DNA of 19,823 nucleotides from an uncultured Desulfomonile sp. (lineage in GTDB: Bacteria; Desulfobacterota; Desulfomonilia; Desulfomonilales; Desulfomonilaceae): assembly GCA_937915285.1 (NCBI GenBank), contig CALDNG010000028.1, forward strand, positions 1 to 19,823, in the 5' to 3' direction. Every line of letters begins with the position of its first letter. The first letter of the stretch is position 1. Below the pieces are notes generated by a model. That model had not been told where the DNA came from. It ran no database searches and worked only from the letters and a program-made list of their open reading frames with translations. This document shows positions 1-14,102 of the stretch, in pieces. Position numbers and translations under genes: made by a program.

Positions 1-33
1 ATCGGACATCGGGTAAACTAATGGAAACGGTAG

Positions 34-66
34 CCCTTGTCTCCAGTTTGGAGGCAAGGGTTTTTT
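34..66 (+). terminator. Intrinsic terminator upstream of the MDR gene
   Basis: A 12-bp stem (34-45 with 49-60, one G-T wobble) closes a 3-base loop and is followed at once by six T (61-66). That is the classic layout of a rho-independent terminator on the plus strand. It most likely ends a gene lying mostly left of the window; stop codons at 14-16 or 19-21 could be that gene's end, but the frame cannot be told. The next gene starts only 10 bases after the T-run, so the terminator either leaks into it or acts as an attenuator (inference). Confidence 0.85.
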
Positions 67-76
67 ATTTGGAGAA

Positions 77-1075
77 ATGAAGGCATTAGTTCTAAGAAAA
101 CCTGGAGAAATGATCGTCTTGGACGTCCCTGATCCTGGGCCCAGGCCTGGTTACGCGGTTTTAAAAGTCGAAAGCTGCGCCCTGTGCAGGACTGACGCAA
201 AAATGATGGTCCAAGGACAAAGGGACCTGATTCTGCCGCGAATATTGGGCCATGAGATAGTGGGAATTCGTGAAGACACCGGCGAACGGGTTGCGGTGTG
301 GCCGGCACAAGCGTGCGGAGTTTGTGTTCACTGCATTTCCGGAAAAGATAACCAGTGCGACGCCATAGGCATTATAGGTTTCAACATGGACGGTGGATTG
401 GCCGAGCGTCTGCTGATCTGTGAATCCTCTCTTCACCCAATTCCCGACTCCCTCGATAGTGATGTAGCCTGTCTCGCCGAACCTCTAGCCTGCGCGATAA
501 ACGCCCTGGAACAGTCAAACATAGCCAAAGATCAGACAGCGCTGATTTTTGGAGGTGGCAGTCTTGGATTGTTACTGGCCCTGGCCGCCAAAGCCATAGG
601 AGCCTTCCCAACGATCAATGAGACTAATCCCCAAAAATTGAAAAAAAGCAGCTACTTCCTGAGCAGGCTAGGGCTTACAAACCAAAGAGCAGACGATTCA
701 AATGACTACGACGTGGCAATCAACGCCTGCCCATCCACTACAGCCGTGAACGAGGGTCTGCAAAGATTGAAGAAGGGAGGTTGCTTCTGCCATTTCAGCG
801 GATTAGCGCCTACCGATTCTATAACTTGCGGAGCGCTGAATGAAATTCATTACCGTCAATTACACATGGTAGGCGCCTATGGTTGCTCCACTTCCCATTT
901 CAGGTCAGCCATAGAATTGCTCGAACGGCATCAGGCGACAGCCCGACTCCTGATTGAAAGCAAAATTGACCTTGAAAGGGTTCCAGCAGCGCTTTTAGAA
1001 ATTCTTTCCGGCCGTCCACTCAAGATTCTGGCGGATTTGTCACGACTTCAACCCCAAGGAAAGACAGAAACCTAA
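77..1075 (+). CDS. Zinc-binding medium-chain (alcohol-type) dehydrogenase
   Basis: Predicted cytosolic NAD(P)-dependent oxidoreductase of the zinc MDR superfamily, 332 aa, a normal length for the family. The N-terminal GroES-like half shows the catalytic zinc ligands Cys37 and His59-Glu60 (GHE). It also has the complete structural-zinc set Cys80, Cys83, Cys86 and Cys94. A Rossmann nucleotide-binding stretch with GGGSLG lies near residue 160. The ATG has a GGAG only 2 bases upstream, which is tight, but the N-terminus MKALVL is typical of the family. The gene begins 10 bases after a terminator and is followed after 20 bases by the TrpD-fold gene, so the two are probably co-transcribed. The substrate cannot be told from sequence; sorbitol, threonine and other polyol dehydrogenases share this layout. 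Confidence 0.9.
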   Translation: MKALVLRKPGEMIVLDVPDPGPRPGYAVLKVESCALCRTDAKMMVQGQRDLILPRILGHEIVGIREDTGERVAVWPAQACGVCVHCISGKDNQCDAIGIIGFNMDGGLAERLLICESSLHPIPDSLDSDVACLAEPLACAINALEQSNIAKDQTALIFGGGSLGLLLALAAKAIGAFPTINETNPQKLKKSSYFLSRLGLTNQRADDSNDYDVAINACPSTTAVNEGLQRLKKGGCFCHFSGLAPTDSITCGALNEIHYRQLHMVGAYGCSTSHFRSAIELLERHQATARLLIESKIDLERVPAALLEILSGRPLKILADLSRLQPQGKTET

Positions 1076-1095
1076 CGATTTAATGGAGACCGCGG

Positions 1096-2169
1096 ATGAT
1101 GGATGAAGACAGGAAACGTGAATTCGGGCGGCTGATATCAGCCGTGGCATTTGGAAGGCAATTGACCCGTGAAGAGTCATGCGAGGCTTACAGGCAAGTT
1201 ATCATGAATGAGCAGCCGGAACTGCAGCAAGGCGCATTTCTACTTGCCCATATTGCGCGCGGTCCATCCACCGAAGAACTCGGGGGCGCATGGCTGGCTT
1301 TGGACAGGTATGACACAGCAAAGATCTGCGTCAGTAAAACGGGGCCGATGTGTGACATTGTTGGGACAGGCTCTGACAAACTCAAAACGGTCAACTGCTC
1401 AACCCCGTCCGCCCTTATTGCTTCTGCAGCCGGCCTTAGTGTGGCTAAGAAGGGGGCCCGTCTTGTCACTGGAGTATCAGGGGCATCCGACATCTTTGAG
1501 ATACTCGGCCTTGACCTGGACCGTCCACTCTCACAGGCTGCAAAATGCCTGGAGGCCCATGGGCTGTGTTACTTGCCGGGAGAGGCTTTTCTCAAGTCAG
1601 GCTGGGCCCGTCTGATAAAATCGATGCGTTTCACATCGGCTTTCAATATAATTGGCCCCATAACAAGACCGTGTGAACAAACGAATTGTATAGTGATAGG
1701 GGCTTACTCGCCAACAGTTTGTGACCAGCTTGTAGCAGTGCTGAATGAAACGGGAATGCCCAGAGCCCTGGCTCCTTTCGGAATGGCCACAGGGAGAGAT
1801 TTGTCGGAGGGAATGGATGAATTCTCTACGTGCGGACCTACCAGGGTAGTAGAATTGAAACAAGGGAAGACCGATATTTATGAAGTTACTCCCTTTGATT
1901 TTGGGATTGATGAGACCGCTTTCGAGAGCATTGCGAGCAGACATACTGCTTATGAAAACGCCACAGCCATTCTTGATATCATATCTGGACAATATGACAC
2001 TCCATTGGCCGACTTTTTCTGTATCAACGCTTCAGCCGCTCTATATGTTTCAGGGCTGGCCAAAAACTACAGGACCGGCTTCGAAATGGCAAAACAGGCG
2101 CTCGCCCAAGGAAAGGCCAGGGAAAAGCTGGAGAGACTGCTTGAATTTCAAGGAGCTTCAAGGAGTTAA
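1096..2169 (+). CDS. Divergent TrpD-fold (anthranilate phosphoribosyltransferase-like) protein
   Basis: 357 aa, clearly related to anthranilate phosphoribosyltransferase and nucleoside phosphorylase family 3. It has an N-terminal helical domain and then a PRPP-binding loop DIVGTGSDKLKTVNCST (about 87-103). KKGARLVTGVSG follows (about 118-129), then FNIIGPI (183-189) and GMDEFS (239-244). Known TrpD enzymes have KHGNR where this protein has KKGAR, so the His and Asn there are absent. By hand alignment, the Arg pair before FNLLGP is also replaced (residues around 172-181). The phosphoribosyl-diphosphate side is therefore kept and the anthranilate side is changed, so I infer a different acceptor or a non-tryptophan role, as in TrpD2/YbiB-type paralogues. 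No other trp gene is nearby. The ATG has GGAG 7 bases upstream. It sits 20 bases after the MDR gene and 36 bases before the methyltransferase. Confidence 0.82.
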   Translation: MMDEDRKREFGRLISAVAFGRQLTREESCEAYRQVIMNEQPELQQGAFLLAHIARGPSTEELGGAWLALDRYDTAKICVSKTGPMCDIVGTGSDKLKTVNCSTPSALIASAAGLSVAKKGARLVTGVSGASDIFEILGLDLDRPLSQAAKCLEAHGLCYLPGEAFLKSGWARLIKSMRFTSAFNIIGPITRPCEQTNCIVIGAYSPTVCDQLVAVLNETGMPRALAPFGMATGRDLSEGMDEFSTCGPTRVVELKQGKTDIYEVTPFDFGIDETAFESIASRHTAYENATAILDIISGQYDTPLADFFCINASAALYVSGLAKNYRTGFEMAKQALAQGKAREKLERLLEFQGASRS

Positions 2170-2205
2170 GGATTTTAAGATGGGCCAGGAGACTCGGGGA
2201 ATCAC

Positions 2206-3465
2206 ATGAAGTTGGGCACATCCATCGATTCATACTTACGAAAGTTCACTCTTGTTGATGAAAGGACAAACCTCCATCTGTTCGGTCATGATGAAGCTTC
2301 CACACGGGTTGAAGAGGCAACAATCGACGGAACACTGGTCAACAGATACGTCAATGAATTTTGGACATCACGCCAGAGACAGGCGAGTTCCATCCATGAA
2401 ATCTCATACAGGGCATGTTTCAAACCGCAGTTGCCAGGATTCTTCATAAAGCTGCTTTCCGATGCCAATTCGCTCATATATGACCCATTTAGTGGCAGGG
2501 GAACAACATTGATAGAGGCCGGGTTGCTTGGTCGAAGAATCATCTCCAATGACGCAAATCCTTTGAGCCTCATTCTGACTCGCCCGAGGTTTGCCCCACC
2601 GGCCGTGTCCGATGTTAGCGCCAGACTGGATTCTATTCCCGCCAAATCTTGCGACGGCGATGAAATTGACCTATCCATGTTCTTTCATGAAAAAACCATT
2701 CAGGAGATTTTGCGCCTGAGAAACTACCTTGTCGACCGACGAACTGCAGGCGAGGAGGATGACATTGACAGATGGATAGCCATGGTTGCGACCAACAGGC
2801 TGACGGGTCATTCAAAGGGATTTTTTTCAGTTTACACACTGCCGCCCAATCAGGCAGTCTCTCCGGAAAGACAGAAGAAAATCAACCTAGCGAGAAATCA
2901 GACCCCAGAATACCGCAATGTCAAAGAAATCGTCCTCAAGAAAACTGCCGGCCTGTTGAGATCCCTCACCCAAGAACAGATCAACAACCTCAAGAATGCC
3001 GCATGCTCAGCGGCGTTCCTTAACAATGACGCCAGAAACACCCCTAAAATTGAATCAGACTCCGTGCAGCTAATAGTCACATCCCCTCCATTTCTGGATG
3101 TTGTTCAGTATTCTACAGATAACTGGATGAGGTTATGGTTCAACTCATTGAAGCTCAATGAATCAGGGGCCTCAATCACCATGGCTAAAAAGGTTGAAGA
3201 CTGGTCATCATTCATTATGTTCGTTTTCAAGGAACTTTACAGGGTATGCAAAGGAAACGGCTACGTGGCCTTTGAGGTCGGAGAGGTAAAAAACCGAACG
3301 GTGAACCTTGATGAGCATGTGGTTCCCTTAGGAATAGCCGCTGGATTCGAATGTCTAGGAATCCTGGTCAATTCGCAGCGGTTTTCAAAAACATCAAACA
3401 TATGGGGAGTCAAGAACATGACTTCGGGAACCAACTCCAACAGGATAGTGCTGTTCAGAAAATAG
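2206..3465 (+). CDS. Amino-type DNA methyltransferase (N4-cytosine/N6-adenine family), apparently orphan
   Basis: 419 aa. A SAM-binding motif DPFSGRGTT lies at 93-101, followed by an acidic end of strand two (SNDANPLS, 114-121). The catalytic motif TSPPF is at 292-296. An upstream His...Tyr...Pro pattern (64-77) resembles that of PF01555-type DNA methylases. The motif order, SAM site first and SPP(F/Y) later with about 190 residues between, fits that family. TSPPF rather than DPPY favours N4-cytosine but does not prove it. No restriction endonuclease or specificity subunit is adjacent, so it is solitary here. A GGGGA lies 5 bases before the ATG. It is the third gene of a closely spaced group with the MDR and TrpD-like genes and the last plus-strand gene before a convergent minus operon. 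An RNA or other nucleic-acid substrate is possible. Confidence 0.85.
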   Translation: MKLGTSIDSYLRKFTLVDERTNLHLFGHDEASTRVEEATIDGTLVNRYVNEFWTSRQRQASSIHEISYRACFKPQLPGFFIKLLSDANSLIYDPFSGRGTTLIEAGLLGRRIISNDANPLSLILTRPRFAPPAVSDVSARLDSIPAKSCDGDEIDLSMFFHEKTIQEILRLRNYLVDRRTAGEEDDIDRWIAMVATNRLTGHSKGFFSVYTLPPNQAVSPERQKKINLARNQTPEYRNVKEIVLKKTAGLLRSLTQEQINNLKNAACSAAFLNNDARNTPKIESDSVQLIVTSPPFLDVVQYSTDNWMRLWFNSLKLNESGASITMAKKVEDWSSFIMFVFKELYRVCKGNGYVAFEVGEVKNRTVNLDEHVVPLGIAAGFECLGILVNSQRFSKTSNIWGVKNMTSGTNSNRIVLFRK

Positions 3466-3602
3466 TGTATTATTAAAGATGTTTAGCTTGAAACAGCACG
3501 AAACAATTTCCACGCGCCAGGACCTGCGCCTCGCTTCCAGGCGTTTGAACGCAATGGACAAGGAAAACATATCTGTAGCTGTCGATAGGAGCGCATTTCC
3601 GA

Positions 3603-4595
3603 TCAATCCTTCTGATTCTCGAGGAATTGATTCAGGAATGGCAATATTGATGTTGCGGCTATGTCATGGCCGAGCGCATTGGGATGCTGATCTAAAGACG
3701 AAACCCACAGATCAGGCGCATGCATGCCAAGAAAGGACGGAAGAAGATTATGGGTTGGAATTTGACCTTCCTTCCCAAATTTTACCAAGTGGTTCACAAT
3801 TCCCTGAAACGGATAACTTTCATTGAGTTCAACCAAAACCGGAAAAATCACCATGCCGATAACCGCTCCATGACTTTCAGATACGGCTTTGATTTTTCGG
3901 ATGTTAACCTTGGCGCGCTCCCACTCCTCTGTTTTATCAGTCCCTCCGAAATAGGACTCGTTCAATAATTCAGAATACTTCCTAGCCAGAAATGACCGGT
4001 CGAGGAAGTCCTGAAACAATCGGTAGAGATACGAGTGTCGATAGAGGATTGATTCATTCGTTCGGTTTGCAATGGACCTGCCTTGAATTTCCCGACGAAT
4101 AGGATCGAAGAAGTGCCCCATGGAACCCAGTCGTGTGCCATCCCTCAAAAAAAACACTATAAGGACAATATCCGGTTTAAACGGCACAATCACACGATTC
4201 AACAAATCCAGCCAATTGTTGGTCAGGCTGCCCGGCAAGCCTCCATTGAGTATTTCAACGGATAACCCTTTCGGGGACAGTAAGCTATTTAGTTGTTTCT
4301 CCAGCAACCTCGGGAAAATGGCCTCTTCCTCTTTAACGCCTTGACCGAATGTGAAGGAATCCCCGAGTATCAAAACACGCTTGCAGTCATGGGGGACGAC
4401 ATCAGAAAAATCTTTATCCCGCAAACCGAAAGTGTTCAACTTTACCGACGCGTTGGGACTTACCTCCTCCGACTCTCCCAAAAGACTTTGATACCATGGC
4501 TCTGTGTAAACCAGCCTACAGTAGGACTCAACTATCGTAACCCCCAATAAAATACTGACAACAACTAATAAGACTTCAAACGGAAATCTCCTCAA
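3603..4595 (-). CDS. Membrane-anchored SGNH/GDSL-type hydrolase-like protein
   Basis: About 330 aa. One N-terminal hydrophobic segment (about residues 4-24 from the chosen start) should anchor it in the inner membrane with the catalytic domain outside. The nucleophile block is ILGDSFTFGQG (Ser80) and the C-terminal block is SLDQHPNALGH (Asp302, His304), so Ser, Asp and His of a GDSL esterase are present. The block normally written as G/N-x-N-D after the VLIVFF strand reads FFLRDG, with Arg where Asn usually completes the oxyanion hole. I chose the TTG at 4595 because GGAGG lies 4 bases upstream. A longer reading from the TTG at 4622 adds nine residues but has only a distant AGGA. It is the last gene of the minus operon, about 70 bases after the methyltransferase, and may deacylate or modify the operon product or a cell-surface glycan (inference). 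Confidence 0.78.
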   Translation of the reverse strand: MRRFPFEVLLVVVSILLGVTIVESYCRLVYTEPWYQSLLGESEEVSPNASVKLNTFGLRDKDFSDVVPHDCKRVLILGDSFTFGQGVKEEEAIFPRLLEKQLNSLLSPKGLSVEILNGGLPGSLTNNWLDLLNRVIVPFKPDIVLIVFFLRDGTRLGSMGHFFDPIRREIQGRSIANRTNESILYRHSYLYRLFQDFLDRSFLARKYSELLNESYFGGTDKTEEWERAKVNIRKIKAVSESHGAVIGMVIFPVLVELNESYPFQGIVNHLVKFGKEGQIPTHNLLPSFLGMHAPDLWVSSLDQHPNALGHDIAATSILPFLNQFLENQKD

Positions 4596-4668
4596 CGCCC
4601 CTCCATAAATTGGCAATAACAATTTTTGCGGCTATCCTAACGGACGATTAGAAATTCAAAAATTTGCA

Positions 4669-5610
4669 CTACAAATTCCCAGACAATCTGCGTCCTACAT
4701 AATCAAGCTGATGAGCCATGTAAAATAATTCGTTGTTCGTTATTTGGTTTCTTCTTGTTTCAAGCCATTGATCCAGTTCCGCCTTCTCGACTCCAGGATT
4801 GTTTTGGAGAGCCGAGCCTACTGTTTCAACTATAAAGCGGATGAAATATTGTTCGTCATGCCTGTACCCGGACTCAAGGGGTGCAACAACCCAGTCAGAA
4901 GCCCCAACCTCCATCACCGAACAGCCATTAGCTATCAGGTGTTTGAACAGATGCCTCCCAGCCTTGCTGTCGCCTGATTTTAGCCCGTTAGTGATTCTCT
5001 CATCCATGGTCTGGTGATAGAGATGTTCGATGCGCTCATCCAGTTCAGGATCAACTTCGGGCTGAAAAACAGTAGAGCCATCGAAATTGATCGAGAAATA
5101 ATACAGGCCGTTTGGTTTTAGCAGACTGATTATCGACGAGAGGCTGCGCTTCATGTCTATCAGATCCAAAAAGGCATTTGACACAAGAATGTCAAATTGG
5201 GGATTTGACCCTGTTGATTCAATAAATCTAAAGACATCATCGAGGATAAAATTGACTGTGAGGTCGACGCCCTCGGATGATCTTACGGTAATGGAGGAAT
5301 CCGGATTAACATGAGTTTGGAAACCTTTATCAGCAGCCCAACCGGTTATCCGTCTCCTTGCTTCAGCGATGTTATCTTCCATGGAATCCAGCGCGAAATA
5401 ATGGGCTTTCTTGAGAATAGTCCAATCCACAAGCCTGTCTATCATAGAACCGATTCCGGCCCCTATTTCAAGGATACGCGGATACTCTAACCCTTGAATA
5501 GTCAATTCATCTCTGAACGTCTCAATCACAACCCGGTTGAGGGCCCTATCATCGACTGTTTTTTTTGATGATAGATATCTGGGGAAACTGAACAAAAAAT
5601 TCTGCGACAT
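4669..5610 (-). CDS. Class I SAM-dependent methyltransferase
   Basis: 313 aa. Motif I ILEIGAGIG lies at about 46-54, preceded by a helical N-terminus. An acidic residue follows at the second strand (ALDSMEDN), then the motif IV-like region FDILVSNAFLDLID and the post-motif LLKPNGLYYFSINF. These mark a seven-strand class I methyltransferase with a large C-terminal substrate lid that ends in AHQLDYVGRR. The acceptor cannot be read from sequence. The ATG at 5610 begins 2 bases after the glycosyltransferase stop (5613-5615); a TTG at 5616 overlapping that stop would add two residues. SD is weak (AAAGAAATGG), so translation is probably coupled to the upstream gene. The context suggests methylation of a glycosylated small molecule made by the operon (inference). 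Confidence 0.82.
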   Translation of the reverse strand: MSQNFLFSFPRYLSSKKTVDDRALNRVVIETFRDELTIQGLEYPRILEIGAGIGSMIDRLVDWTILKKAHYFALDSMEDNIAEARRRITGWAADKGFQTHVNPDSSITVRSSEGVDLTVNFILDDVFRFIESTGSNPQFDILVSNAFLDLIDMKRSLSSIISLLKPNGLYYFSINFDGSTVFQPEVDPELDERIEHLYHQTMDERITNGLKSGDSKAGRHLFKHLIANGCSVMEVGASDWVVAPLESGYRHDEQYFIRFIVETVGSALQNNPGVEKAELDQWLETRRNQITNNELFYMAHQLDYVGRRLSGNL

Positions 5611-5612
5611 AG

Positions 5613-6692
5613 TCAACGAACCATTTCTTTAACAAATTCAAGAGCCTTTTCTGCGCTCTGATCCCACGTTGGATGCACCCGATACCTGCGTAAAGCCGCC
5701 TGGCCCATTTGGGCCAGTCTGTCCCTGTCCCGACTCAGCATGTCTAATGTTTTATAAATGGCTTCCTCATCACCGGGGCTAACCAGAAAACCATTAACGG
5801 AATTGGTGATTATCTCGTGAGCTGCGCCAACATTTGAACCAATCGACGGCATCCCAAAGCCCATGGCCTCGAGGTACACAATCCCAAATCCTTCGTAGGA
5901 TGACGGGACTGCCAGGACATGATTTTCCATATATCGTCTGGCCAGATCAACCGGATCGAGCGGTCCGAGCGCATTGACTGATTCCTCCAGACGATTCGCC
6001 TCAATAAGCTTTGTGACGAGCTTTGAATAGTTCCTGTCAACCTTGAAGCTTCCGACTATATCAAGTAGCCACTCACCTCGAGGTAGCCTTGACAGGGATT
6101 TTATCAGGGTATGGAGTTCTTTTCTGGGAATTACGCTTCCCACGAAGAGTATTCTCAGTGGGCCATCAGCATGAGCGCGCTTCGAAACATAATCATCATC
6201 TACATTTTCTCGAATGCCGTCCCGACCCGGATGCGCCACCACTCCCGGACGGGCCCCGAGGTCAAGCGCTCTCACCGCCTTACGGGTCGTGTTGCTGTTG
6301 TAAATCATCCCATCCAGAGTTGAAAGATAGGCGCCCTCAACAAACCGATAGATACCATTCATGAATTTGGATCGCTGCTCACTGCACCTGAGGTGATGAA
6401 CAATGCTGATGATGGGATATCGGATCTTTTGCTTGAGCTTACGGTTGAGACGGACCAGGGATGGGTGATTTAGTTCGTCCTGAATCAGGATGTCCAGGCG
6501 AGCAGAGGCTAGATTAGAAAGGAAATCCTTTCTGTAGTTGTCGGCCAGATGGCTGGGATAATTTCTCCAAGGTAATGAAAACACTTTGACATCATGTCCC
6601 TTTGACCGAAAATAGGACACAAATTTCCTGTCATACAGGAAGCCACCGGTTAGCGTATCGAGGCTCCCGTAAATAACAATCCCAATCCTCAA
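5613..6692 (-). CDS. Family GT4 glycosyltransferase
   Basis: 359 aa, two-domain GT-B fold of the GT4 group. It transfers a sugar from a nucleotide donor to an unknown acceptor, with retention of configuration according to family knowledge. The N-terminal domain starts RIGIVIYGSL and has a conserved VHH (about 98-100). The C-terminal donor domain starts LRILFVGSVIPRKE (Arg190-Lys191 for phosphate contacts). It carries the EX7E motif as PSSYEGFGIVYLEA (Glu267 and Glu275), then the NGFLV segment. The start is TTG: its TTGA overlaps the TGA stop of the PTPS-like gene by 4 bases, with a purine-rich GAGAGAG just before it. Such tight coupling to a pterin-type protein suggests a soluble small-molecule acceptor rather than lipopolysaccharide, although a polysaccharide role cannot be excluded. 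Confidence 0.87.
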   Translation of the reverse strand: MRIGIVIYGSLDTLTGGFLYDRKFVSYFRSKGHDVKVFSLPWRNYPSHLADNYRKDFLSNLASARLDILIQDELNHPSLVRLNRKLKQKIRYPIISIVHHLRCSEQRSKFMNGIYRFVEGAYLSTLDGMIYNSNTTRKAVRALDLGARPGVVAHPGRDGIRENVDDDYVSKRAHADGPLRILFVGSVIPRKELHTLIKSLSRLPRGEWLLDIVGSFKVDRNYSKLVTKLIEANRLEESVNALGPLDPVDLARRYMENHVLAVPSSYEGFGIVYLEAMGFGMPSIGSNVGAAHEIITNSVNGFLVSPGDEEAIYKTLDMLSRDRDRLAQMGQAALRRYRVHPTWDQSAEKALEFVKEMVR

Positions 6693-7093
6693 GCTCTCTC
6701 TCTTCTGCAGGAAGCCCAGGCTATTTCATTCTCCCAGAGTTTAACAGATATCGCCTCAACGTTGGATAACTCTAAATGCTTCCAGAAAGACTCCAGAAAG
6801 AAGCCCGAGAGGCGCTCTATGCTGGGATTTAATCCATCAAACTCCGGAAGAGCATTGAGATCCTTGTCACGATAATAGTCCACAAGACCGTTTATGCAGT
6901 TTTCAATGTCTACTATATCGACCAGGTATCCGTGCTGATCCAGTTCCGAGCCTTCAAGGCAGACTTCTACCTGGTAATGGTGTGAATGGAGTTGGTTTTC
7001 GCTACCCCAGTCACCACCGAAAAGAAAATGACGGGCTACAAAATCACGTTTGACAGCTACGCAGTATGTGGACGCAGTCCTTGTTAGAGCCAT
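6689..7093 (-). CDS. PTPS/QueD-fold protein with apparently altered catalytic residues
   Basis: 134 aa, the normal length for 6-pyruvoyl-tetrahydropterin synthase / 6-carboxytetrahydropterin synthase. The zinc-binding histidines are present: His22 in FVARHFL and His36 and His38 in LHSHHYQVEV. Asp59 of the LVDIVDIE strand and the pterin-anchoring Glu121 (KLWENEIAWA) are also kept. By hand alignment, the catalytic Cys four residues before the HxH is Glu32 (ENQLHSH). The usual Asp-His before xxLN is Arg-Asp (RDKDLN, about 75-80), and HGH is HSH. PTPS-III enzymes also lack Cys, but their Glu lies three residues before the His, not four. It is therefore probably not a standard QueD or folate enzyme; a different reaction on a pterin-like substrate, or a binding role, is inferred. 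GAGGA lies 6 bases upstream of the ATG. The MDR stop is 2 bases before the start, and the GT4 gene overlaps the 3' end. Confidence 0.85.
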   Translation of the reverse strand: MALTRTASTYCVAVKRDFVARHFLFGGDWGSENQLHSHHYQVEVCLEGSELDQHGYLVDIVDIENCINGLVDYYRDKDLNALPEFDGLNPSIERLSGFFLESFWKHLELSNVEAISVKLWENEIAWASCRRERA

Positions 7094-7095
7094 TG

Positions 7096-8127
7096 TTAAT
7101 CCTCGTGCACAAAAATTGCCTGTATTATCTCGTGGGGTTTCTTGTCTATAGTGTCATATGCCAGACAAGCTTCATTTATGTTAAATCGATGGGTGACCAG
7201 CCTCGACGGACGGACTTTTCTCAAAAAGTCAATGGCGAGATCCAGACGCCTCTTTTTTGTCCAGCGTCCCAGAAACTCGGGGGAAATGGTGCTCACCTGA
7301 CTGCTGGAGATATTAATCCTGCTCCTGTGGAAATAGCCACCGAGGTTAATGTCAGCATGCTTTGATCCGTACCATGATCCTATTACAATTCGTCCAGCAA
7401 ATCCAGTAACTTCTATTGCGGAATTGAGCGCCAGGGGGTTTCCCGAAAGTTCAAGACTGAGGTCGGCCCAGCGTCTGAAATTGGCTGAATCAATAGGCTT
7501 GCCCAGATTGGAATCCGCCAGGCAAACAGAGGGATCATGAACCGAATCGGCGCCCAGTTCCAGGGCAAGATTTCTGCGCTGTTCGAGGCCATCAAAAGTA
7601 GCCAGGTGTTCAAGCCCGACGCGACTCAAAACGGCTACAGTCAGCAGACCTACTACCCCGAGACCAAACACGCAAACGCGCTCACCAATTGTCGGATGAC
7701 CGTCCATGACAAGGTTTACGGCAGTTTCCATATTGGGGAGCATTGATGCGCCTTCAGATTCGATGTCATCAGGTATGCGGATTACATCCGCTGGCCCGCA
7801 AACAAATAGACTCTCATGAGGGTTGAATGAGAAGACCCTTTTCCCAACCAGCGAGGGATCTACGCCACTTCCAGCATCGATAACCCGGCCGATACTGGAA
7901 TACCCATATTTTATTGGATAGGTGAAATCATCGGACAGCGAAGAGATCGTTTCATCGACAACACAGTTCTTTGGCCACTGGCCCCTGTAAACCAGCATTT
8001 CAGTGCCAGAGCTTATTGCCGAAACTATTGTTTTTATTAACAGCCTGCCTGGCTGGGGCCAGACGATGTCCGATTCAAGGACTCTTACATTGTATGGTGA
8101 ACTAAACTCTATATATTTCGACTTCAT
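7096..8127 (-). CDS. MDR-family dehydrogenase lacking zinc ligands (BchC-like subgroup)
   Basis: 343 aa with the MDR layout: an N-terminal GroES-like domain, then a Rossmann domain with VFGLGVVG (GLGVVG at 155-160). The catalytic-zinc Cys position reads SAISSGTE (Ser40). The usual GHE reads GYS in KYGYSSIGRV (75-77), and no cluster of four cysteines for structural zinc is present. The S-x-S-GTE and KYGYS signatures resemble those of BchC-like dehydrogenases; that resemblance is from memory of the family. I infer an NAD(P)-dependent reductase or dehydrogenase without zinc chemistry, acting on the product of the neighbouring reductase or PTPS-like protein. The ATG has GGAGG 7 bases upstream. 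It lies 23 bases after the RibD-type gene and 2 bases before the PTPS-like gene. Confidence 0.83.
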   Translation of the reverse strand: MKSKYIEFSSPYNVRVLESDIVWPQPGRLLIKTIVSAISSGTEMLVYRGQWPKNCVVDETISSLSDDFTYPIKYGYSSIGRVIDAGSGVDPSLVGKRVFSFNPHESLFVCGPADVIRIPDDIESEGASMLPNMETAVNLVMDGHPTIGERVCVFGLGVVGLLTVAVLSRVGLEHLATFDGLEQRRNLALELGADSVHDPSVCLADSNLGKPIDSANFRRWADLSLELSGNPLALNSAIEVTGFAGRIVIGSWYGSKHADINLGGYFHRSRINISSSQVSTISPEFLGRWTKKRRLDLAIDFLRKVRPSRLVTHRFNINEACLAYDTIDKKPHEIIQAIFVHED

Positions 8128-8150
8128 GGCCGGGCCTCCATCCGAACTTG

Positions 8151-8906
8151 TTAAGCCCGACCCGCTCCTACAGCTTCAGACAAGACTGAGACCGTTGCCC
8201 TGTTTTCAGTAAGGCTTCCCCAGAGAATGAGGTCTTTACCCAACCACCTGTGGCCTGGATTGACCAGTCTAAGGAACTGCGCCGGATCTACGTCCCCCAG
8301 TTCACTTACTGCCCTTAGACCTCCTACCAACACTGGAGCTATGGTCAGCACGATGTAATCTGTCAGTCTCTCCATCAGAAAGCTTGTAATAATACGAGCG
8401 CCACCCTCGACCATAAGACTGTTGATTCCTAGGCTGCCGAGCTTGTCCAGCATGTCCGACAGGTTGACCTGTCCACGCTCATTGGATTGAATTCTAAGGA
8501 CTTGCGCCCCTAACTCCTCTAACGCTCGAACCCGCTTGCCGTCGGCCTGTTTGCTCGTGACAATAATGGGTTTACGAGAGGATTCCTTAAGAAGGTTGCA
8601 ATCGAGCGGCAATCTGAGTTTGCTGTCCACGACGACCGGTCTGGGATCTTCACCGTGGACAAGGCGAACGGTTAGCCTCGGATCATCCGAGAAGACTGTG
8701 CCGATTCCCACCAAGATAGCGTCATGTGAAGCTCTGAGCTGATGAGTAAGCTTCAGGGATCTTCTTCCACTCAAAGCCAAAGGCTCTCCAGGTCTCGCGG
8801 AAATACAGCCGTCCAGGCTCTGGGCATAACTCAGAGTAACAAACGGGCGGCCCTTCAGTCTCCTGTGCTCGGGAGCAAACGCTAGTAGAGGCTTAATGAA
8901 ATCCAT
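8151..8906 (-). CDS. Stand-alone RibD C-terminal-type reductase (DHFR fold)
   Basis: 251 aa from the chosen ATG. It matches the reductase half of RibD, which in riboflavin synthesis reduces the ribosylamino-pyrimidine with NADPH. Visible family motifs are RPFVTLSYAQSLDGCIS near the N-terminus, HQLRASHDAILVGIGTV, DDPRLTVR, a VDSKLRLP strand, VEGGARI, and AP-x-x-x-GG before the C-terminus. The zinc deaminase half of bifunctional RibD is missing (no HAE or PC-x-x-C segment). The architecture is thus like archaeal or fungal stand-alone reductases. The first gene of the minus operon, it sits with PTPS-like and MDR genes rather than with other rib genes, so reduction of a pterin- or pyrimidine-type intermediate is inferred. 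Starts at GTG 8924 or TTG 8933 are possible; none has a strong SD. Confidence 0.85.
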   Translation of the reverse strand: MDFIKPLLAFAPEHRRLKGRPFVTLSYAQSLDGCISARPGEPLALSGRRSLKLTHQLRASHDAILVGIGTVFSDDPRLTVRLVHGEDPRPVVVDSKLRLPLDCNLLKESSRKPIIVTSKQADGKRVRALEELGAQVLRIQSNERGQVNLSDMLDKLGSLGINSLMVEGGARIITSFLMERLTDYIVLTIAPVLVGGLRAVSELGDVDPAQFLRLVNPGHRWLGKDLILWGSLTENRATVSVLSEAVGAGRA

Positions 8907-8992
8907 TTTAAATCTTTGTCGCACCTGCCACAATAATTAATATCCGTGACCAAGGAAGCCCTGGTTTGGCTCCTGCCAAAAACATAAGCTGC

Positions 8993-9021
8993 TTATAATA
9001 ACAAAACCGAAAATTCTACAA
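8993..9021 (-). promoter_or_regulatory. Candidate promoter of the reductase-PTPS-glycosyltransferase operon
   Basis: On the minus strand TTGTAG (9021-9016) and TTATAA (8998-8993) are 17 bases apart; a second -10 reading, TATTAT, lies two bases upstream. Transcription from here would give a leader of about 80 bases before the ATG at 8906. That leader carries a perfect 6-bp hairpin (8965-8980, loop of 4) and an imperfect one at 8950-8964. The match to consensus is only fair. Confidence 0.35.
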
Positions 9022-9302
9022 AATAAAAAAGTGACACATTTCGCTGTTCTACCCTTGAAAAATAGCTTCTAACACGATGGCAGACTCTAATCAAGCCATC
9101 TTAAGCTCGGGAATCTTTTTTTGTGTCGCAATTTTTTTTGTTGTCTCCATGTATTAAGGGGTAGAACACACTTGTCTGATATTAGTTCCAGATAATTTAG
9201 TCAATGCGCAAAAATATCTTTGCATCTACAACAAGAATCAGTTTCGCTTCCTGTTTTTGGCGAGCGAAGCGTTTCCACATTCACAGCTTTGTCCAATAAA
9301 AA

Positions 9303-9331
9303 TTGAAAAGACCGGTTCCTTGTGGTACACT
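9303..9331 (+). promoter_or_regulatory. Sigma70-type promoter for tsaE-lysC-cimA-HhH
   Basis: TTGAAA (9303-9308) and TACACT (9326-9331) are separated by exactly 17 bases. Expected transcription start is near 9338, giving a leader of about 60 bases before tsaE. This is one of the best-matching promoters in the window and lies directly upstream of a four-gene same-strand run. Confidence 0.6.
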
Positions 9332-9398
9332 TGCTGATTGATCTTTGTGAGTGAGACGCAAAGTCTTGTGAAAAGGCATCTATAGGAATTGTTTCAAG

Positions 9399-9890
9399 TT
9401 GGCGTCAATGAAGAGTCAGACACATCTTACGATGTCAGAGGCCCAAACCATCGAGATGGGAAAGATCATCGGATCATCGTTGATGCCAGGAGACATTGTA
9501 ATTCTGATTGGGGATCTTGGCGCCGGTAAAACGAGACTGGCAAAGGGCATAGTGTCTGCCGCCACAGGGATAGACCAGGATGAGGTTGTAAGCCCGTCAT
9601 TCAGTCTGATCAACCGTTATGAAGGTGACATGGTCGTGGACCATGCCGACCTGTACCGACTGACGGATCAGCAGGTAAACGATCTGGGAGTCTATGATGT
9701 GCTCGATGAAGCTGCCCTGATTATTGAATGGGGACATTTCCGCGAATCTCATGACGACCGGGAATTACAGGTTGTCATCAGATACGCCGAAGAAGAAGAT
9801 TCAAGGTTGATAGAATTGTCTTACGCTTGCGATGGATCCTGGGATAAACGACTCACGACCAGGCTCAGGGAATTTGAACTTATTCAGTAG
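9399..9890 (+). CDS. tsaE: tRNA threonylcarbamoyladenosine biosynthesis ATPase TsaE
   Basis: 163 aa P-loop ATPase. It works with TsaD and TsaB in making the t6A37 modification of ANN-decoding tRNAs in the cytosol. The Walker A motif is GDLGAGKT (38-45). It is followed by the family segments VVSPSFSLINRY (about 63-74), HADLYRL (82-88) and LIIEWG near residue 110. Length is normal for the family. The TTG at 9399 has AGGA 11 bases upstream; the ATG at 9408, which would remove three residues, has no SD at a usual distance, so the TTG is slightly preferred. It is the first gene after the 9303-9331 promoter. The order tsaE-lysC-cimA recurs in deltaproteobacteria, to my recollection. Confidence 0.93.
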   Translation: MASMKSQTHLTMSEAQTIEMGKIIGSSLMPGDIVILIGDLGAGKTRLAKGIVSAATGIDQDEVVSPSFSLINRYEGDMVVDHADLYRLTDQQVNDLGVYDVLDEAALIIEWGHFRESHDDRELQVVIRYAEEEDSRLIELSYACDGSWDKRLTTRLREFELIQ

Positions 9891-9960
9891 TTGACAGGTT
9901 CTTCCATGGACCTGAACTAGTTTTGTCTTGAAGGTCTTGCAGTATGCACGGAGAAAACTG

Positions 9961-11181
9961 ATGCCACTAATTGTCCAGAAATACGGAGGAACTTCCGTAG
10001 GTGATTTGGGACGAATTGCAAACGTAGCGCGACGGGTAGCTTCCTATAAAGACAGGGGAGATGACCTTGTAGTCGTGGTATCGGCAATGGCTGGTGAAAC
10101 TGATCGCTTGATAAATCTGGCCAAACAGATATCCCCTACACCGAACGAGCGCGAGCTGGATGTACTGGTCTCGACGGGAGAACAGGTGACGATTTCCCTA
10201 CTGGCCATGACGCTGGAGTCAATGGGCTATAAGGCCAGGTCTTATTGCGGGTGGCAGATCCCGCTGGTAACAGACAGCGCCTTCTGTTCGGCCAGGGTTA
10301 CGGATGTGCATAGGGACAACATAGAAAAGGACCTTAAAGAAGGCGCCATTGTCATAGTGGCGGGCTTTCAGGGGGTTGACGATAGAGGAAATATAACCAC
10401 CCTGGGCAGAGGCGGATCTGACACATCCGCTGTCGCAGTGGCTGCAGGTCTAAAAGCTGACCTGTGTGAGATATTTACCGACGTGGACGGGGTTTACACC
10501 ACAGACCCAAACATCAGCCCTGACGCCAGGAAGATCAAGCAGATCGCTTACGAGGAAATGTTGGAAATGGCGTCTCTAGGGGCTAAAGTCCTCTATATTC
10601 GGGCAGTTGAATTCGCGATGAGACATAGTGTACCGCTAGTTGTCCGCTCCAGTTTTAATGACAATGAAGGGACCCTTGTAACGGAGGAAAATACGGAAAT
10701 GGAAAAAGAGTCTGTTAGGGCAGTCACTTGCAATACCAAGGAAGCAAAAATCAAGGTAGCCGGGGTTCCAGACGTGCCTGGTGTAGCGTCTCAGGTGTTC
10801 GGGGCAATGGCAGAGGCCAACATAGTGGTTGACATGATCATTCAGAATTCTAGCGCCGACGGTAAGACGGACATTACCTTCACGGTTCCCGAGTCTGATC
10901 TGGAAAAAGGTTTGGAAGTGTGCCAGGGGCTGAAAGACATTCTTGCGGCTGAAGACATCAGGGGAACAAAGGACATAGCCAAGGTCTCCATCATCGGTTT
11001 GGGCATGCGGTCTCATTCCGGGGTGGCCTCCAAAATGTTTGCTGCGCTTGCCCGGGAGGGAATAAACATACAGATGATTTCAACATCTGAGATCAAGATT
11101 TCCTGCGTGGTGAAGAGAAAATACGCTGAATTGGCAGTCCGCGTGCTTCACGATGTCTTTGAGATGGAAAAAGCCCTGTAG
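9961..11181 (+). CDS. lysC: Aspartokinase (monofunctional, two ACT domains)
   Basis: 406 aa. It phosphorylates aspartate, the first step towards lysine, threonine and methionine. The N-terminal kinase signature is VQKYGGTSVGD (about 5-15), followed by STGEQV, GRGGSDTSAVAVAAGL and FTDVDGVYTTDP. Two C-terminal ACT domains (roughly 265-335 and 345-400, with VPDVPGVASQVF and MRSHSGVASKMF) indicate feedback control by an aspartate-family amino acid, by family knowledge. The start at ATG 9961 is set by GGAG 7 bases upstream and by homology. An in-frame TTG at 9928 gives an 11-residue extension that I reject. A perfect TTGACA at 9891-9896 lacks a convincing -10 (GAACTA at 17 bases), so the gene probably shares the tsaE transcript. 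Confidence 0.96.
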   Translation: MPLIVQKYGGTSVGDLGRIANVARRVASYKDRGDDLVVVVSAMAGETDRLINLAKQISPTPNERELDVLVSTGEQVTISLLAMTLESMGYKARSYCGWQIPLVTDSAFCSARVTDVHRDNIEKDLKEGAIVIVAGFQGVDDRGNITTLGRGGSDTSAVAVAAGLKADLCEIFTDVDGVYTTDPNISPDARKIKQIAYEEMLEMASLGAKVLYIRAVEFAMRHSVPLVVRSSFNDNEGTLVTEENTEMEKESVRAVTCNTKEAKIKVAGVPDVPGVASQVFGAMAEANIVVDMIIQNSSADGKTDITFTVPESDLEKGLEVCQGLKDILAAEDIRGTKDIAKVSIIGLGMRSHSGVASKMFAALAREGINIQMISTSEIKISCVVKRKYAELAVRVLHDVFEMEKAL

Positions 11182-11205
11182 ATTTGTAGAGTTCGGAGCA
11201 TTTAA

Positions 11206-12786
11206 TTGAAGAGTATCGAATTATATGACACCACGTTGCGAGATGGGGCTCAAACCTGGGGGATTACCTTTTCTCTGGATGATAAACTCAGAATTGCCCA
11301 GAAGCTGGATGAGATAGGTATTGACCTCATAGAGGGGGGCTATCCAGGCTCCAATCCCAAGGATCGAAGGTTTTTTCAAGCCGCCAGATCGATTAAATTC
11401 AGGCGATCCAGAATAGCCGCCTTTGGTAGCACATGCAGGGCCGACCTGACACCGGACAGGGATCCGCAGATTCAGGCTCTCATCGACACCCAAACAGAAG
11501 TAGTCACTGTAGTGGGGAAAAGCTGGGACCTTCATGCCCGGGAAATTCTCGCGGTGCCTCTCGAACGCAACCTTTCAATGATTGCAGACTCTCTGGAGTT
11601 TTTAAGGCCTCATTTTCAGAAAGTTATTTTTGACGCTGAACATTTCTTCGACGGATTCAGAAAAAACAGGGAATACGCTCTAGCTACTCTCAAGGCGGCT
11701 CAACCCTACAGCGATGTCATTTGCCTCTGCGACACCAATGGGGGAACACTCCCCATGGAATTGGTGGAGGTCATCACCGAGGTCAGAAAACACATAGACA
11801 AAGAGCTGGGTGTTCACTGTCACAATGATTCAGAAACCGCAGTAGCTAATTCCATCATGGCTGTGGTGGCTGGGGTAAACCATGTTCAAGGGACTGTCAA
11901 CGGTATTGGCGAACGCTGCGGCAACGCCAATCTAATATCCATCCTGCCCGCTTTAAGCCTCAAGATGAAACGGATGGAGATTGCTCCTGAGAAACTCCGT
12001 ATGTTGAAACACGTGTCGGAATTCGTTGATGAAATGGCCAACAGGACTCCGAACAAATCGCAACCCTATGTGGGCGCATCGGCATTTGCCCACAAGGGAG
12101 GATTACATTCAAGCGCGGTATTCAAGAACGCCATGGCCTATGAACACATCGACCCGGACCTGGTAGGCGCTGCCCGTAATTTCCCCATATCAGAACAGGC
12201 CGGCCGCGCAGCCCTGGCCCAGAAAGCAGCCCAGTACGGGATCAATATTAGCCCTGATGATCCACGCATAACCGAGATTCTCAAGACCCTCAAAGACATG
12301 GAAGCCCAAGGCGCCAGGTATGATATTGCCGATGGCTCATTTGAATTGCTGATGAAACGCATGCTCGGACTCCACAAAAAGCTCTTTACGCTGCACGGAT
12401 TCAACGTCACGGATTCCAAACGCCAGGGAGATACCAAGACCTATTCGGACGCAGTTATTCGAATAGTGGTTGGTGACAAGATGGAATTCAGCGCAGCGGA
12501 GGGAAACGGACCCGTTAATGCTTTGGACAATGCCTTCAGAAAGGCGCTGTCGAATTTCTATCCTAGCGTTAACAAGGTTCACCTCACCGACTTCAAGGTC
12601 AGGGTCATCGAGGGAACGTCGGGAACCGGAGCCACGGTAAGCGTTCTCATTGAATCAACCGATGGTGAGGACGTATGGTGGACAGTAGGCTTCAACCAGA
12701 ATGTCATCCAGGCCTCATGGAGCGCGCTGGTGGACAGCATAGACTATAAATTACAAAAAGACATGGCGTCATCGGGTGAGCGTTAA
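11206..12786 (+). CDS. cimA: (R)-citramalate synthase
   Basis: 526 aa, the length of CimA rather than of the shorter 2-isopropylmalate synthases of some groups. It condenses pyruvate with acetyl-CoA to citramalate, the threonine-independent entry to isoleucine. The HMG-CoA-lyase-like barrel begins ELYDTTLRDGAQ (5-16; Arg12 and Asp13 catalytic). The metal-binding GVHCHND (202-208; His204 and His206) and VNGIGERCGNAN (231-242) follow. The C-terminal third (about 390-520) fits the LeuA-type regulatory dimer domain, the usual site of isoleucine feedback. The ITFSLDDKL and IEGGYPGSNPKD segments match citramalate synthases as I recall them. The start is TTG, with GGAG 7 bases upstream. It lies 24 bases after lysC and overlaps the HhH gene by 11 bases. 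Confidence 0.94.
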   Translation: MKSIELYDTTLRDGAQTWGITFSLDDKLRIAQKLDEIGIDLIEGGYPGSNPKDRRFFQAARSIKFRRSRIAAFGSTCRADLTPDRDPQIQALIDTQTEVVTVVGKSWDLHAREILAVPLERNLSMIADSLEFLRPHFQKVIFDAEHFFDGFRKNREYALATLKAAQPYSDVICLCDTNGGTLPMELVEVITEVRKHIDKELGVHCHNDSETAVANSIMAVVAGVNHVQGTVNGIGERCGNANLISILPALSLKMKRMEIAPEKLRMLKHVSEFVDEMANRTPNKSQPYVGASAFAHKGGLHSSAVFKNAMAYEHIDPDLVGAARNFPISEQAGRAALAQKAAQYGINISPDDPRITEILKTLKDMEAQGARYDIADGSFELLMKRMLGLHKKLFTLHGFNVTDSKRQGDTKTYSDAVIRIVVGDKMEFSAAEGNGPVNALDNAFRKALSNFYPSVNKVHLTDFKVRVIEGTSGTGATVSVLIESTDGEDVWWTVGFNQNVIQASWSALVDSIDYKLQKDMASSGER

Positions 12787-13336
12787 GGAAGAAAAATCGA
12801 TCTCCGCTTCCAGGTTGGCTCTAGTAGGGATTGTTTCGGTCTGGGTATCCATAGAGCTGGTTTCGCATGCGTTTCGTTTTATGGATACGAATCATCGGAT
12901 GGAGGGTTTACTGGAAGGGGAGTGTGTGTATCAGGTTTCTACGGACAATTTCATTCTGGGCACAAGGTCCTTTGTTAACCCAAGGAGTCTTGGCGATCTA
13001 CTCAAGAGTTTCGATAGTGTCACGATGAGTGAACAGGAATTTATTAACCGCATTGTTCCCTGCAACACCCTAGTGAACATTAATACCAAGGACGGAGCAG
13101 TGGCGTTTTCTTCAATTCCTGGAACCCAATTGATCGCTCTGGGCAAGAAAGTATCTATAAACGATTCTACGACTGAGGATCTCGAGGCTGTGCCTGGCAT
13201 AGGCCCACGCATGGCCGAAAGAATTGTCGATTACAGGTCGTCTCACGGAAGGTTCAAATCAGTCAGGGATCTTGAAAAAGTCCAGGGCATCGGACAAAAA
13301 CGACTTCTGGAACTGGAATCCTACCTCAAACCCTGA
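12776..13336 (+). CDS. Membrane-anchored ComEA-like helix-hairpin-helix protein
   Basis: 186 aa. One hydrophobic segment (about 13-33, ALVGIVSVWVSIELVSHAF) should anchor it with the C-terminus in the periplasm. The middle part (35-120) has no motif I recognise. The C-terminal 60 residues form a tandem helix-hairpin-helix DNA-binding unit with PGIG at 140-143 and QGIG at 170-173, as in ComEA, the periplasmic DNA-uptake receptor. ComEA proteins are often close to this architecture, but no other competence gene is nearby. The start is GTG, 11 bases inside cimA with only a weak SD, so translation is probably coupled. It ends 4 bases from the convergent larB stop. DNA uptake is possible, but another DNA-binding role cannot be ruled out. 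Confidence 0.8.
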   Translation: MSVKEEKSISASRLALVGIVSVWVSIELVSHAFRFMDTNHRMEGLLEGECVYQVSTDNFILGTRSFVNPRSLGDLLKSFDSVTMSEQEFINRIVPCNTLVNINTKDGAVAFSSIPGTQLIALGKKVSINDSTTEDLEAVPGIGPRMAERIVDYRSSHGRFKSVRDLEKVQGIGQKRLLELESYLKP

Positions 13337-13340
13337 ACCG

Positions 13341-14102
13341 CTAATTCTTTCTTTCTGATCTGGTCATTATACAGGCGGCATACGCCGCGCCAAATCCATT
13401 GTCAATGTTAACGACCACGACACCTGGAGCGCATGAGTTGAGCATGCCTAGTAGGGCGGCTATGCCTCCGAAGGACGCCCCATAACCGATAGACGTTGGA
13501 GTGGCGATCACGGGCCTGTCCACCAAACCTCCCACAACACTGGGGAGAGCCCCCTCCATACCAGCCACAACAATTATAGCCGAAGCCTCCCTGAGCTTTT
13601 CATAATGCCGGAAAAGCCTGTGTATGCCGGCAATTCCCACATCATAAATAGTTTCCACTCGAGCGCCGAAAGCCTGGGCCGTGACCTTTGCCTCTTCAGC
13701 AACCGGCAAATCAGAAGTTCCTGCGGCTACTACTAGGATGAGGCCGGTTGATAACGATTCAATTGGTTTCCTTGAATAAACAAGGGTACGAGCCAACCGG
13801 TTGTGTTCAAGACCCTGTATGGCACTCATCACCACGGCGGACTTTTCATCACTGACACGGGTAGCCAATACAGTGTCCTGTTTCCTGATTAGCGAATTGA
13901 AAATGCCTGTTATCTGTTCTGCAGTCTTGCCTTCACCATAAATCACTTCCGGGAAACCAAGACGAATTGCGCGGTGATGATCCACCGATGCAAACCCCAA
14001 ATCTTCCACCTGAAGAGCCTTGAATTTCTCACAAGCGATATCAGGAGATATCTCGCCGTCCCTAACCTGTTCAAGAATTGTCAAAAGCCGCTGGCGATCC
14101 AA
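13341..14102 (-). CDS. larB: LarB, pyridinium-3,5-biscarboxylic acid mononucleotide synthase
   Basis: 253 aa. LarB carboxylates and hydrolyses nicotinic acid adenine dinucleotide in the first step of the nickel-pincer nucleotide cofactor of lactate racemase-type enzymes. The N-terminal part has [20 protein letters not shown] (41-60). The PurE-like domain has [13 protein letters not shown] (126-138), [15 protein letters not shown] (179-193) and [18 protein letters not shown]. Cys224 is in the place of the catalytic Cys of characterised LarB. The start is TTG 14102, with AGAGG 5 bases upstream. larC and larE are not in this window. It is transcribed alone on the minus strand and meets the HhH gene tail to tail with 4 bases between. 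Confidence 0.94.

Follow-up and report, generated by a model that had tools for sequence, protein, structure and literature searches.

A conserved five-gene block around a PTPS-like protein in Desulfomonile, and a predicted pathway from GTP to a glycosylated pterin or diaminopyrimidine

Synthesis of pterin glycosides in Chlorobium and cyanobacteria uses a 6-pyruvoyl tetrahydropterin synthase (PTPS) and an oxidoreductase. In the toxoflavin pathway, riboflavin-type enzymes and a methyltransferase are diverted to another product; we know of no PTPS-like protein, medium-chain dehydrogenase/reductase (MDR) or family 4 glycosyltransferase (GT4) in that pathway. Riboflavin, archaeal flavins and F420 share an entry in which RibA (GTP cyclohydrolase II), or GTP cyclohydrolase III with a formamidase, is followed by a RibD_C-type reductase. 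The block of genes analysed here lies in 19,823 nucleotides of an uncultured Desulfomonile sp. (GenBank assembly GCA_937915285.1, contig CALDNG010000028.1, positions 1 to 19,823; the window) and encodes a RibD_C-type reductase, an MDR, a PTPS-like protein, a GT4 and a methyltransferase. It shares with the flavin and F420 systems the RibD_C entry and, in relatives, the cyclohydrolase, and differs from them in that ten chosen Chloroflexota carriers gave no match to RibB, RibH or CofH. With pterin glycoside synthesis it shares a GT4-like glycosyltransferase, which there acts on a biopterin (available text of PMC5683033), whereas RibA and RibD_C replace GTP cyclohydrolase I (GCH I) and sepiapterin reductase and a methyltransferase is added. 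A PTPS-IV cluster of 561 sequences was defined in a network paper of 2017, the available text of which gives its neighbourhood as PF00925 and RibD_C; PF00925, called FolE2 there, is GTP cyclohydrolase II by its Pfam name, and the words glycosyltransferase and methyltransferase occur 0 times in the main text (PMC5445326). PTPS-V is termed unclear in the available text of PMC5041015, where 'glycosyl' occurs 0 times. PTPS-IV was found in no other relevant paper of the literature searched.

All six open reading frames (ORFs) of the region lie on the minus strand between 3603 and 8906 (Table 1), at the positions given in the initial annotation, which had read them as a six-gene operon for a possible undescribed pteridine or pyrimidine glycoside pathway. 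When the gaps from RibD_C to the methyltransferase were re-measured, the same values of 23, 2, -4 and 2 were obtained. The last gap, given as about 70, is 46 if the longest SGNH ORF is taken and becomes larger with an internal start. The longest RibD_C ORF starts at 8933; the ATG at 8906 was preferred because the relative in locus L024 begins MDFIRPLLA. Five of the six genes are conserved. The SGNH-like ORF was rejected as a sixth member, being present in 1/91 loci, the window alone; at E 1e-8 no relative was found in the 90 other loci, including the closest, L011, an absence that is weaker in some loci, which end soon after the methyltransferase. In an Rfam scan at gathering thresholds for an upstream riboswitch (window and six loci), only RNase P RNA was found, in L012. 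Promoter-like sites (12 vs 7.3, sd 2.6, in shuffles) and terminator-like sites (3 vs 5.8, sd 2.7) were not used as evidence.

Table 1. Position and domain content of the ORFs of the block and of the adjoining ORF in the window
Feature	Position	Strand	Domain evidence and remarks
RibD_C-type reductase	8151-8906	-	Pfam RibD_C, 157.6 bits; deaminase domain absent
MDR dehydrogenase	7096-8127	-	Pfam ADH_zinc_N only, without ADH_N
PTPS-like T-fold protein, ExxxHSH subfamily	6689-7093	-	Pfam PTPS
GT4 glycosyltransferase	5613-6692	-	Pfam Glycos_transf_1, 111 bits
Class I S-adenosylmethionine-dependent methyltransferase	4669-5610 or 5616	-	Pfam Methyltransf_12, 32.8 bits
SGNH-like ORF	3603-4622	-	Lipase_GDSL_2, 29.9 bits, under the curated cut-off of 32.9; adjoins the block, not a member

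A profile of the PTPS-like protein was scanned against the GTDB species genomes; at least 596 stretches were matched and at least 558 confirmed, and the best 80 of the 558 are called the genome loci below. Block genes were counted within 9 kb of the PTPS-like gene on the same strand. The genome loci are dominated by two groups, so they are not independent, and many are interrupted by contig ends. GT4 was found in 76/80, the methyltransferase in 66/80, the MDR in 62/80 and RibD_C in 52/80. For the 49 loci flanked by at least 4 kb upstream and at least 3 kb downstream, the numbers were 45 (GT4), 42 (MDR), 41 (methyltransferase) and 39 (RibD_C). The commonest order was RibD_C-MDR-PTPS-GT4-methyltransferase, and many Chloroflexota have RibA or a RibA-RibD_C fusion in front. 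The five genes occur together in relatives of Desulfomonile, in Chloroflexota and in Binatota; in haloarchaea, Streptomyces, Thiodictyon and Palleronia, the MDR, PTPS-like and methyltransferase genes are present, mostly with GT4. A protein search with the PTPS-like query returned 7579 proteins at E <=0.001, and the organism names among the best 120 of these were Desulfomonile, Desulfomonilaceae and one Anaerolineales. In 297 genomes sampled from the phylum of a Desulfomonile genome, the PTPS-like subfamily was found in 15, with E values of 2.2e-41 or better; from E 2.8e-26 onwards the matches are ordinary PTPS/QueD-type by score. Within flanks of only 1.5 kb, these 15 carriers, at least two of which (G001, G005) are also among the genome loci, have GT4 in 13 cases, the methyltransferase in 11, the MDR in 10 and RibD_C in 10, and none of the four genes was seen in the same flanks of the five next-best loci. 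In plasmids, haloarchaeal relatives were detected by tblastn at 40-47% identity, and QueD-annotated genes and a Streptomyces type at 23-30%. The MDR stands before and the methyltransferase after the PTPS-like gene in all seven haloarchaeal records (for L007 by our own comparison), with GT4 between the PTPS-like gene and the methyltransferase in four of them. In Haloarcula marismortui pNG700 (L007:8001-8273), the PTPS-like match spans residues 38-128 only, and neither record of the strain lists a gene at this place, the PLSDB gene table being incomplete.

The five-gene block is thus confirmed as real and more than a chance neighbourhood, because its order recurs in Deltaproteobacteria and Chloroflexota and partly in archaea. 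The co-occurrence of RibD_C, MDR, PTPS-like and GT4 genes in other genomes, which the initial annotation had proposed as a check, proved to be conserved. It had also named, as a ground for refutation, that in relatives the glycosyltransferase and methyltransferase belong to a polysaccharide locus and the PTPS-like gene moves independently; in the corresponding rival explanation, the two belong to a surface polysaccharide locus and the PTPS-like gene is a bystander. GT4 and class I methyltransferases are indeed common in polysaccharide loci, and TIGR03112, a domain model related to PTPS, gives a weak match (39.2 bits, cut-off 69.35). The order and near contact of the PTPS-like, GT4 and methyltransferase genes are, however, kept across phyla and partly in archaea. 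Their distance matrices correlate as well (GT4-methyltransferase 0.81, PTPS-methyltransferase 0.74, PTPS-GT4 0.67, each reached by 0/200 permutations), with a contribution from the shared ancestry of the genomes. A polysaccharide locus with a wandering PTPS gene was rejected on the conserved gene order, and we give this explanation very little credence. The glycosyltransferase and methyltransferase genes move together with the PTPS-like gene.

The PTPS-like protein is a COG0720 variant with the motif ExxxHSH. Over 90 sequences, His22, His36, Asp59, Glu93 and Glu121 are invariant and His38 is kept in 87/90; Glu32 occupies the position of the catalytic Cys in 87/90 (Ala in three), and Arg75-Asp76 (77/90 and 85/90) occupy the positions of the Asp-His dyad of PTPS and QueD. 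In this family the histidines bind zinc, Glu121 anchors the pterin, and Cys and dyad are catalytic. The zinc site and the anchor of the 2-amino-4-oxo-pyrimidine are therefore kept, and the catalytic Cys and the dyad replaced. The window protein has the T-fold, zinc histidines and Glu121 in common with QueD (PTPS-I) and mammalian-type PTPS (PTPS-II), which have the Cys and the Asp-His dyad where it has Glu32 and Arg75-Asp76. The structure model has the T-fold of the PTPS superfamily (predicted local distance difference test, pLDDT, 87.4), and its best match and closest solved relative is SCO6650 of Streptomyces coelicolor (PDB 3d7j). To our knowledge SCO6650 has no known function, and a search by its name found no paper. 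The window protein carries none of the described signatures. In place of CxxxHGH, the PTPS-I/QueD motif according to the available texts of PMC5445326 and PMC5041015, it has Glu32 for Cys and HSH for HGH. The PTPS-II (biopterin) motif CxxxxxHGH is absent from its sequence, GDWGSENQLHSH, as is the PTPS-III (folate bypass) motif ExxHGH, Glu lying four and not three residues before the first His. The PTPS-IV signature FGPAQ, seen in L008, L009 and L010, reads WGSEN. The window protein is only 24-25% identical to three proteins of the FGPAQ branch, which have Ala at the third zinc histidine, whereas the ExxxHSH subfamily keeps all three. Databases name the protein 6-carboxytetrahydropterin or 6-pyruvoyl tetrahydropterin synthase, names that its active site, as judged from the residues, contradicts.

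RibD_C matches NCBIfam ribD_Cterm above the cut-off and reaches 142.1 bits (cut-off 186.45) with TIGR01508, the archaeal/fungal-type model of the reductase for 2,5-diamino-6-ribosylamino-4(3H)-pyrimidinone 5'-phosphate (DARPP). Its best solved relatives, a RibD (7lrh), the archaeal enzyme 2azn and others, have near-equal scores. Reduction of DARPP to the ribityl compound is predicted. The MDR lacks the catalytic zinc ligands of the zinc-dependent MDR alcohol dehydrogenases, with Ser39 (69/70, one gap) and Tyr76 (70/70) at the zinc Cys/His positions. GxGxxG is kept, and residue 179 is Asp or Glu in 70/70, which favours NAD over NADP; His104, Glu134, Arg184, His267 and Arg294 are also invariant. 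The nearest folds to its structure model (pLDDT 89.7) are threonine and polyol dehydrogenases, polyol-phosphate ones included and mainly zinc dehydrogenases; the polyol and polyol-phosphate dehydrogenases concerned are zinc enzymes. The MDR is predicted to be the polyol-phosphate dehydrogenase of the pathway. In GT4, the EX7E motif is present, with E267 in 75/75 and E275 in 74/75 sequences.

RibA was found in 41/80 genome loci, fusions counted, and RibA and RibD_C form one ORF in 22/80 (one Pfam-confirmed). A GTP cyclohydrolase neighbour, which the initial annotation had suggested looking for, is therefore frequent in other genomes; its statement that riboflavin partners are not present holds for the window but not for the relatives, where RibA is a frequent partner. 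Compared with the neighbours described for PTPS-IV, the window has RibD_C and lacks RibA, which 41/80 of the relatives' loci have. The fusions measure about 440-610 aa from stop to stop (L061, L049, L029 and 19 others), and no RibB or RibH match was found in the genomes of the three fusion carriers tested (L049, L079, L086). GTP cyclohydrolase III, which is non-homologous to RibA, takes its place in Haloarcula sp. GH36 and H. pelagica (by Pfam for one), both among the seven haloarchaeal records. Next to MDR-PTPS-GT4-methyltransferase, Streptomyces fungicidicus encodes RibA and a creatininase-family protein, and a creatininase-family gene is also near the block in H. marismortui. The Streptomyces RibA reads KLRAMALQ, with Met where 44 other RibA domains (those of the 41 genome loci, Palleronia and two housekeeping RibBA) have Tyr. 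Replacement of this Tyr, which we take to be the residue concerned, by Met presumably gives a formylated intermediate. In S. meliloti, such an intermediate is turned into DARPP by a creatininase-family formamidase (available text of PMC9478397). If the variant acts as assumed and the formamidase step applies here, RibA, GTP cyclohydrolase III and the Tyr to Met RibA variant would converge on DARPP.

Fifteen carrier genomes were chosen for a search of riboflavin, F420 and pterin-entry genes: five Desulfomonile-type Deltaproteobacteria and ten Chloroflexota (five titled chromosomes and five drafts, in which single absences are weaker). Each has one RibA. RibH, RibB and CofH gave no match in 10/10 Chloroflexota, and RibA lies inside the fetched locus in eight of these; judged by gene content, their RibA and RibD_C therefore cannot serve riboflavin or F420. 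The five deltaproteobacterial genomes have a separate RibBA (RibA and RibB matches in one frame of 403-404 aa), RibH and two RibD_C matches, one of them in a frame as long as a RibD (385-425 aa), an assignment by length and RibD_C domain. CofH gave no match above the cut-off of 374 in the 15 genomes, G003 and G004 reaching about 300 bits. That the block serves F420 or riboflavin synthesis could be argued from the riboflavin-type nature of RibA and RibD_C, from these two CofH-like matches and from a tie of PTPS-IV to F420 mentioned as unpublished in the available text of PMC5041015. Both roles were rejected for the ten Chloroflexota on the absences given above, which are weaker in the drafts; the deltaproteobacterial carriers have a separate set of riboflavin proteins, and we hold this explanation to be very improbable. 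A less selected sample comprised 121 genomes from the phylum of G006 (Chloroflexota), with one genome as its centre; 11 have the PTPS-like gene, 78 RibH and 92 RibA. The PTPS-like gene was present in 10/16 genomes with RibA and without RibH vs 1/76 with both (one-sided Fisher p 1.1e-8), and in 9/15 vs 1/76 when the centre genome was left out (p 6.0e-8, one-sided), relatedness being ignored in both tests. An MDR lies within 3 kb of the PTPS-like gene in 9/10 carriers tested. Two of the six genomes with RibA but neither RibH nor the PTPS-like gene have a cluster-type MDR, one of them 0.8 kb from RibA.

The conventional entry to pterins was also searched. GCH I was found in 5/10 chosen Chloroflexota, with a fragment in a sixth, and was absent from the other four and from the five deltaproteobacterial genomes; FolE2 was present in 5/5 of the latter (one partial) and in none of the ten Chloroflexota. 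The block could follow a conventional reduced-pterin route, in which GCH I or FolE2 would provide the substrate of a PTPS-like pterin enzyme, the MDR would be a reductase of a side-chain ketone replacing sepiapterin reductase, RibD_C would reduce a dihydropterin and GT4 would glycosylate a pterin as in Chlorobium, whose pterin glycoside enzyme is described as GT-1- and AviGT-4-like in the available text of PMC5683033. The recurrent neighbour of the block is, however, RibA, fused to RibD_C, and neither GCH I nor FolE2 was matched in 4/10 chosen Chloroflexota carriers. This route is distinctly unlikely.

The conserved block, the link between RibA and RibD_C, their apparent use outside riboflavin synthesis in Chloroflexota and the pattern of lost and kept active-site residues are best accommodated by a dedicated pathway from GTP via DARPP to a glycosylated and methylated pterin or diaminopyrimidine, which we consider probable. 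What follows on the chemical steps, on sugar and methylation site and on the product is our inference. The five genes would constitute the later part of a small-molecule pathway. GTP cyclohydrolase II would make DARPP, presumably as the housekeeping RibBA in the lineage of the window and as the RibA of the cluster elsewhere. RibD_C would reduce the ribosyl chain of DARPP to ribityl, and no deamination would take place. The NAD-type zinc-less MDR would oxidize the chain of the ribityl phosphate, C2' being the likeliest position. The 2'-ketone would be the Amadori intermediate of GCH I, and ring closure with the 5-amino group would turn it into 7,8-dihydroneopterin 3'-phosphate; oxidation at C2' with ring closure is a tentative and rather doubtful step. 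The PTPS-like enzyme may then reshape the side chain using zinc and a glutamate base, after which GT4 would add a sugar and the methyltransferase a methyl group. In a bolder and less probable form, this would be a route to pterins free of GCH I and common to bacteria and archaea: RibA, RibD_C and the NAD-dependent MDR would replace the Amadori rearrangement, a new, glutamate-based T-fold enzyme would process dihydroneopterin phosphate, and GT4 and the methyltransferase (with a CDP-alcohol transferase in many lineages) would produce a pterin cofactor that is glycosylated and methylated and may be bound to the membrane. The pteridine or pyrimidine glycoside pathway of the initial annotation is therefore partly supported, by the block, the cyclohydrolase neighbour and the linkage of glycosyltransferase and methyltransferase, and is deprived of its SGNH member.

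Several observations weigh against the proposed pathway. Reducing a sugar chain and then reoxidizing it is a roundabout path to a dihydropterin. Among zinc-less MDRs, reductases are commoner than alcohol dehydrogenases, and the PTPS-like protein has neither the Cys nor the Asp-His dyad that known PTPS and QueD share. RibA was not found in the window itself, and in the 121-genome sample only 2/11 carriers have it less than 5 kb away from the PTPS-like gene. One of these carriers, G391, is an exception in having RibH and no cluster-type MDR, and 4/6 genomes with RibA but neither RibH nor the PTPS-like gene are also without a cluster-type MDR. The distances of RibD_C and of the PTPS-like protein are weakly correlated (Spearman 0.23). 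The PTPS-like gene is accompanied by GT4 and the methyltransferase alone in 14/80 genome loci (4/49 of the well-flanked ones) and in 5/15 carriers of the phylum sample, so that these three genes are the most tightly linked part of the block, and the MDR may lie at another place in the genome; in 3/80 loci GT4 is the sole companion. As to the supply of DARPP, the two creatininase-family proteins match MftE best (141 and 147 bits, cut-off 172) and the archaeal formamidase model with only 37 and 20 bits (cut-off 180). The creatininase gene of H. marismortui lies 6.9 kb off the block, and no cyclohydrolase was seen in that locus.

A lipid product was considered as well. The ribityl chain would then be retained, and a CDP-alcohol phosphatidyltransferase would link CDP-diacylglycerol or CDP-archaeol to the ribityl phosphate of a pteridine or (diamino)pyrimidine; the head group would be decorated by GT4 and the methyltransferase, and the lipid moved by a flippase-like protein. 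Relatives of a haloarchaeal CDP-OH_P_transf protein are near the block in 18/80 genome loci (Chloroflexota and one Binatota) and in 6/10 plasmid loci (four haloarchaea, Streptomyces and Thiodictyon), five of all these being Pfam-checked; a sequence cluster with an LPG_synthase_TM, flippase-like representative is found in 21 loci. CDP-alcohol transferases are nevertheless common lipid genes, which may adjoin the block for other reasons, and the window and most of the fetched loci showed none. None of the three tested scored above any curated family cut-off; the Streptomyces GT4 was likewise below the cut-off with every model (EpsE best, MshA second), and no pterin-lipid paper was found in the literature search. 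We regard a lipid product as unlikely. In Chloroflexota, the CDP-alcohol transferase and the flippase-like LPG_synthase_TM protein near the block are often side by side (L032:13134-14159, L043:925-2160 and others). In L007, the CDP-alcohol transferase has near it a gene (L007:3833-5803) in which a Gfo/Idh/MocA domain and an aldo/keto reductase are fused.

Other genes were recorded around the block. Redox or membrane proteins are encoded upstream of the PTPS-like gene in L031 and L032, between the MDR and PTPS genes in L052 and L081, and in L009; they are CxxCH cytochrome c-like (by eye), DUF420-like (below cut-off) or annotated as cytochrome b. Iron ABC transporter genes and a GT4 gene lie to the left of the haloarchaeal block in L001 and L006, on the opposite strand. 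TsaE, aspartokinase and citramalate synthase, neighbours of the block in the window, adjoin it again in seven to eight loci (including L012, L013, L015, L018, L019 and L024), three of which are Desulfomonile; the window is accordingly from a Desulfomonile-like bacterium. A 419-aa protein of the window (2206-3465), adjoining trpD, has a DNA-methylase-type domain (N6_N4_Mtase; TIGR01177 below cut-off), and a DNA-methylase-like ORF (TSPPY, by eye) forms a sequence cluster of five loci. Positions 13341-14102 of the window encode LarB, of nickel pincer cofactor synthesis (294 bits, cut-off 175; Pfam gives AIRC only). An 880-aa protein (16396-19038) has DHH, DHHA1, CBS and poly(A) polymerase domains and reaches 926 bits with the A-adding tRNA nucleotidyltransferase model, below the cut-off of 1440.

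Literature searches on the combination of genes, on paralogs of COG0720/PTPS, on PTPS-IV and on glycosides and lipids of pterins found no description of this pathway in titles or the opening lines of abstracts; most subscription journals lay outside them. As far as these searches go, the pathway as a whole is undescribed, and so are the ExxxHSH subfamily, the fusions of RibA with RibD_C and the carriers that lack riboflavin synthesis. The conservation of the block across bacterial phyla and haloarchaea, and the GTP cyclohydrolase-reductase fusion that belongs to it in organisms apparently unable to make riboflavin, point to an unrecognized cofactor or signal molecule. Culturable carriers such as Streptomyces and Haloarcula make its product findable.

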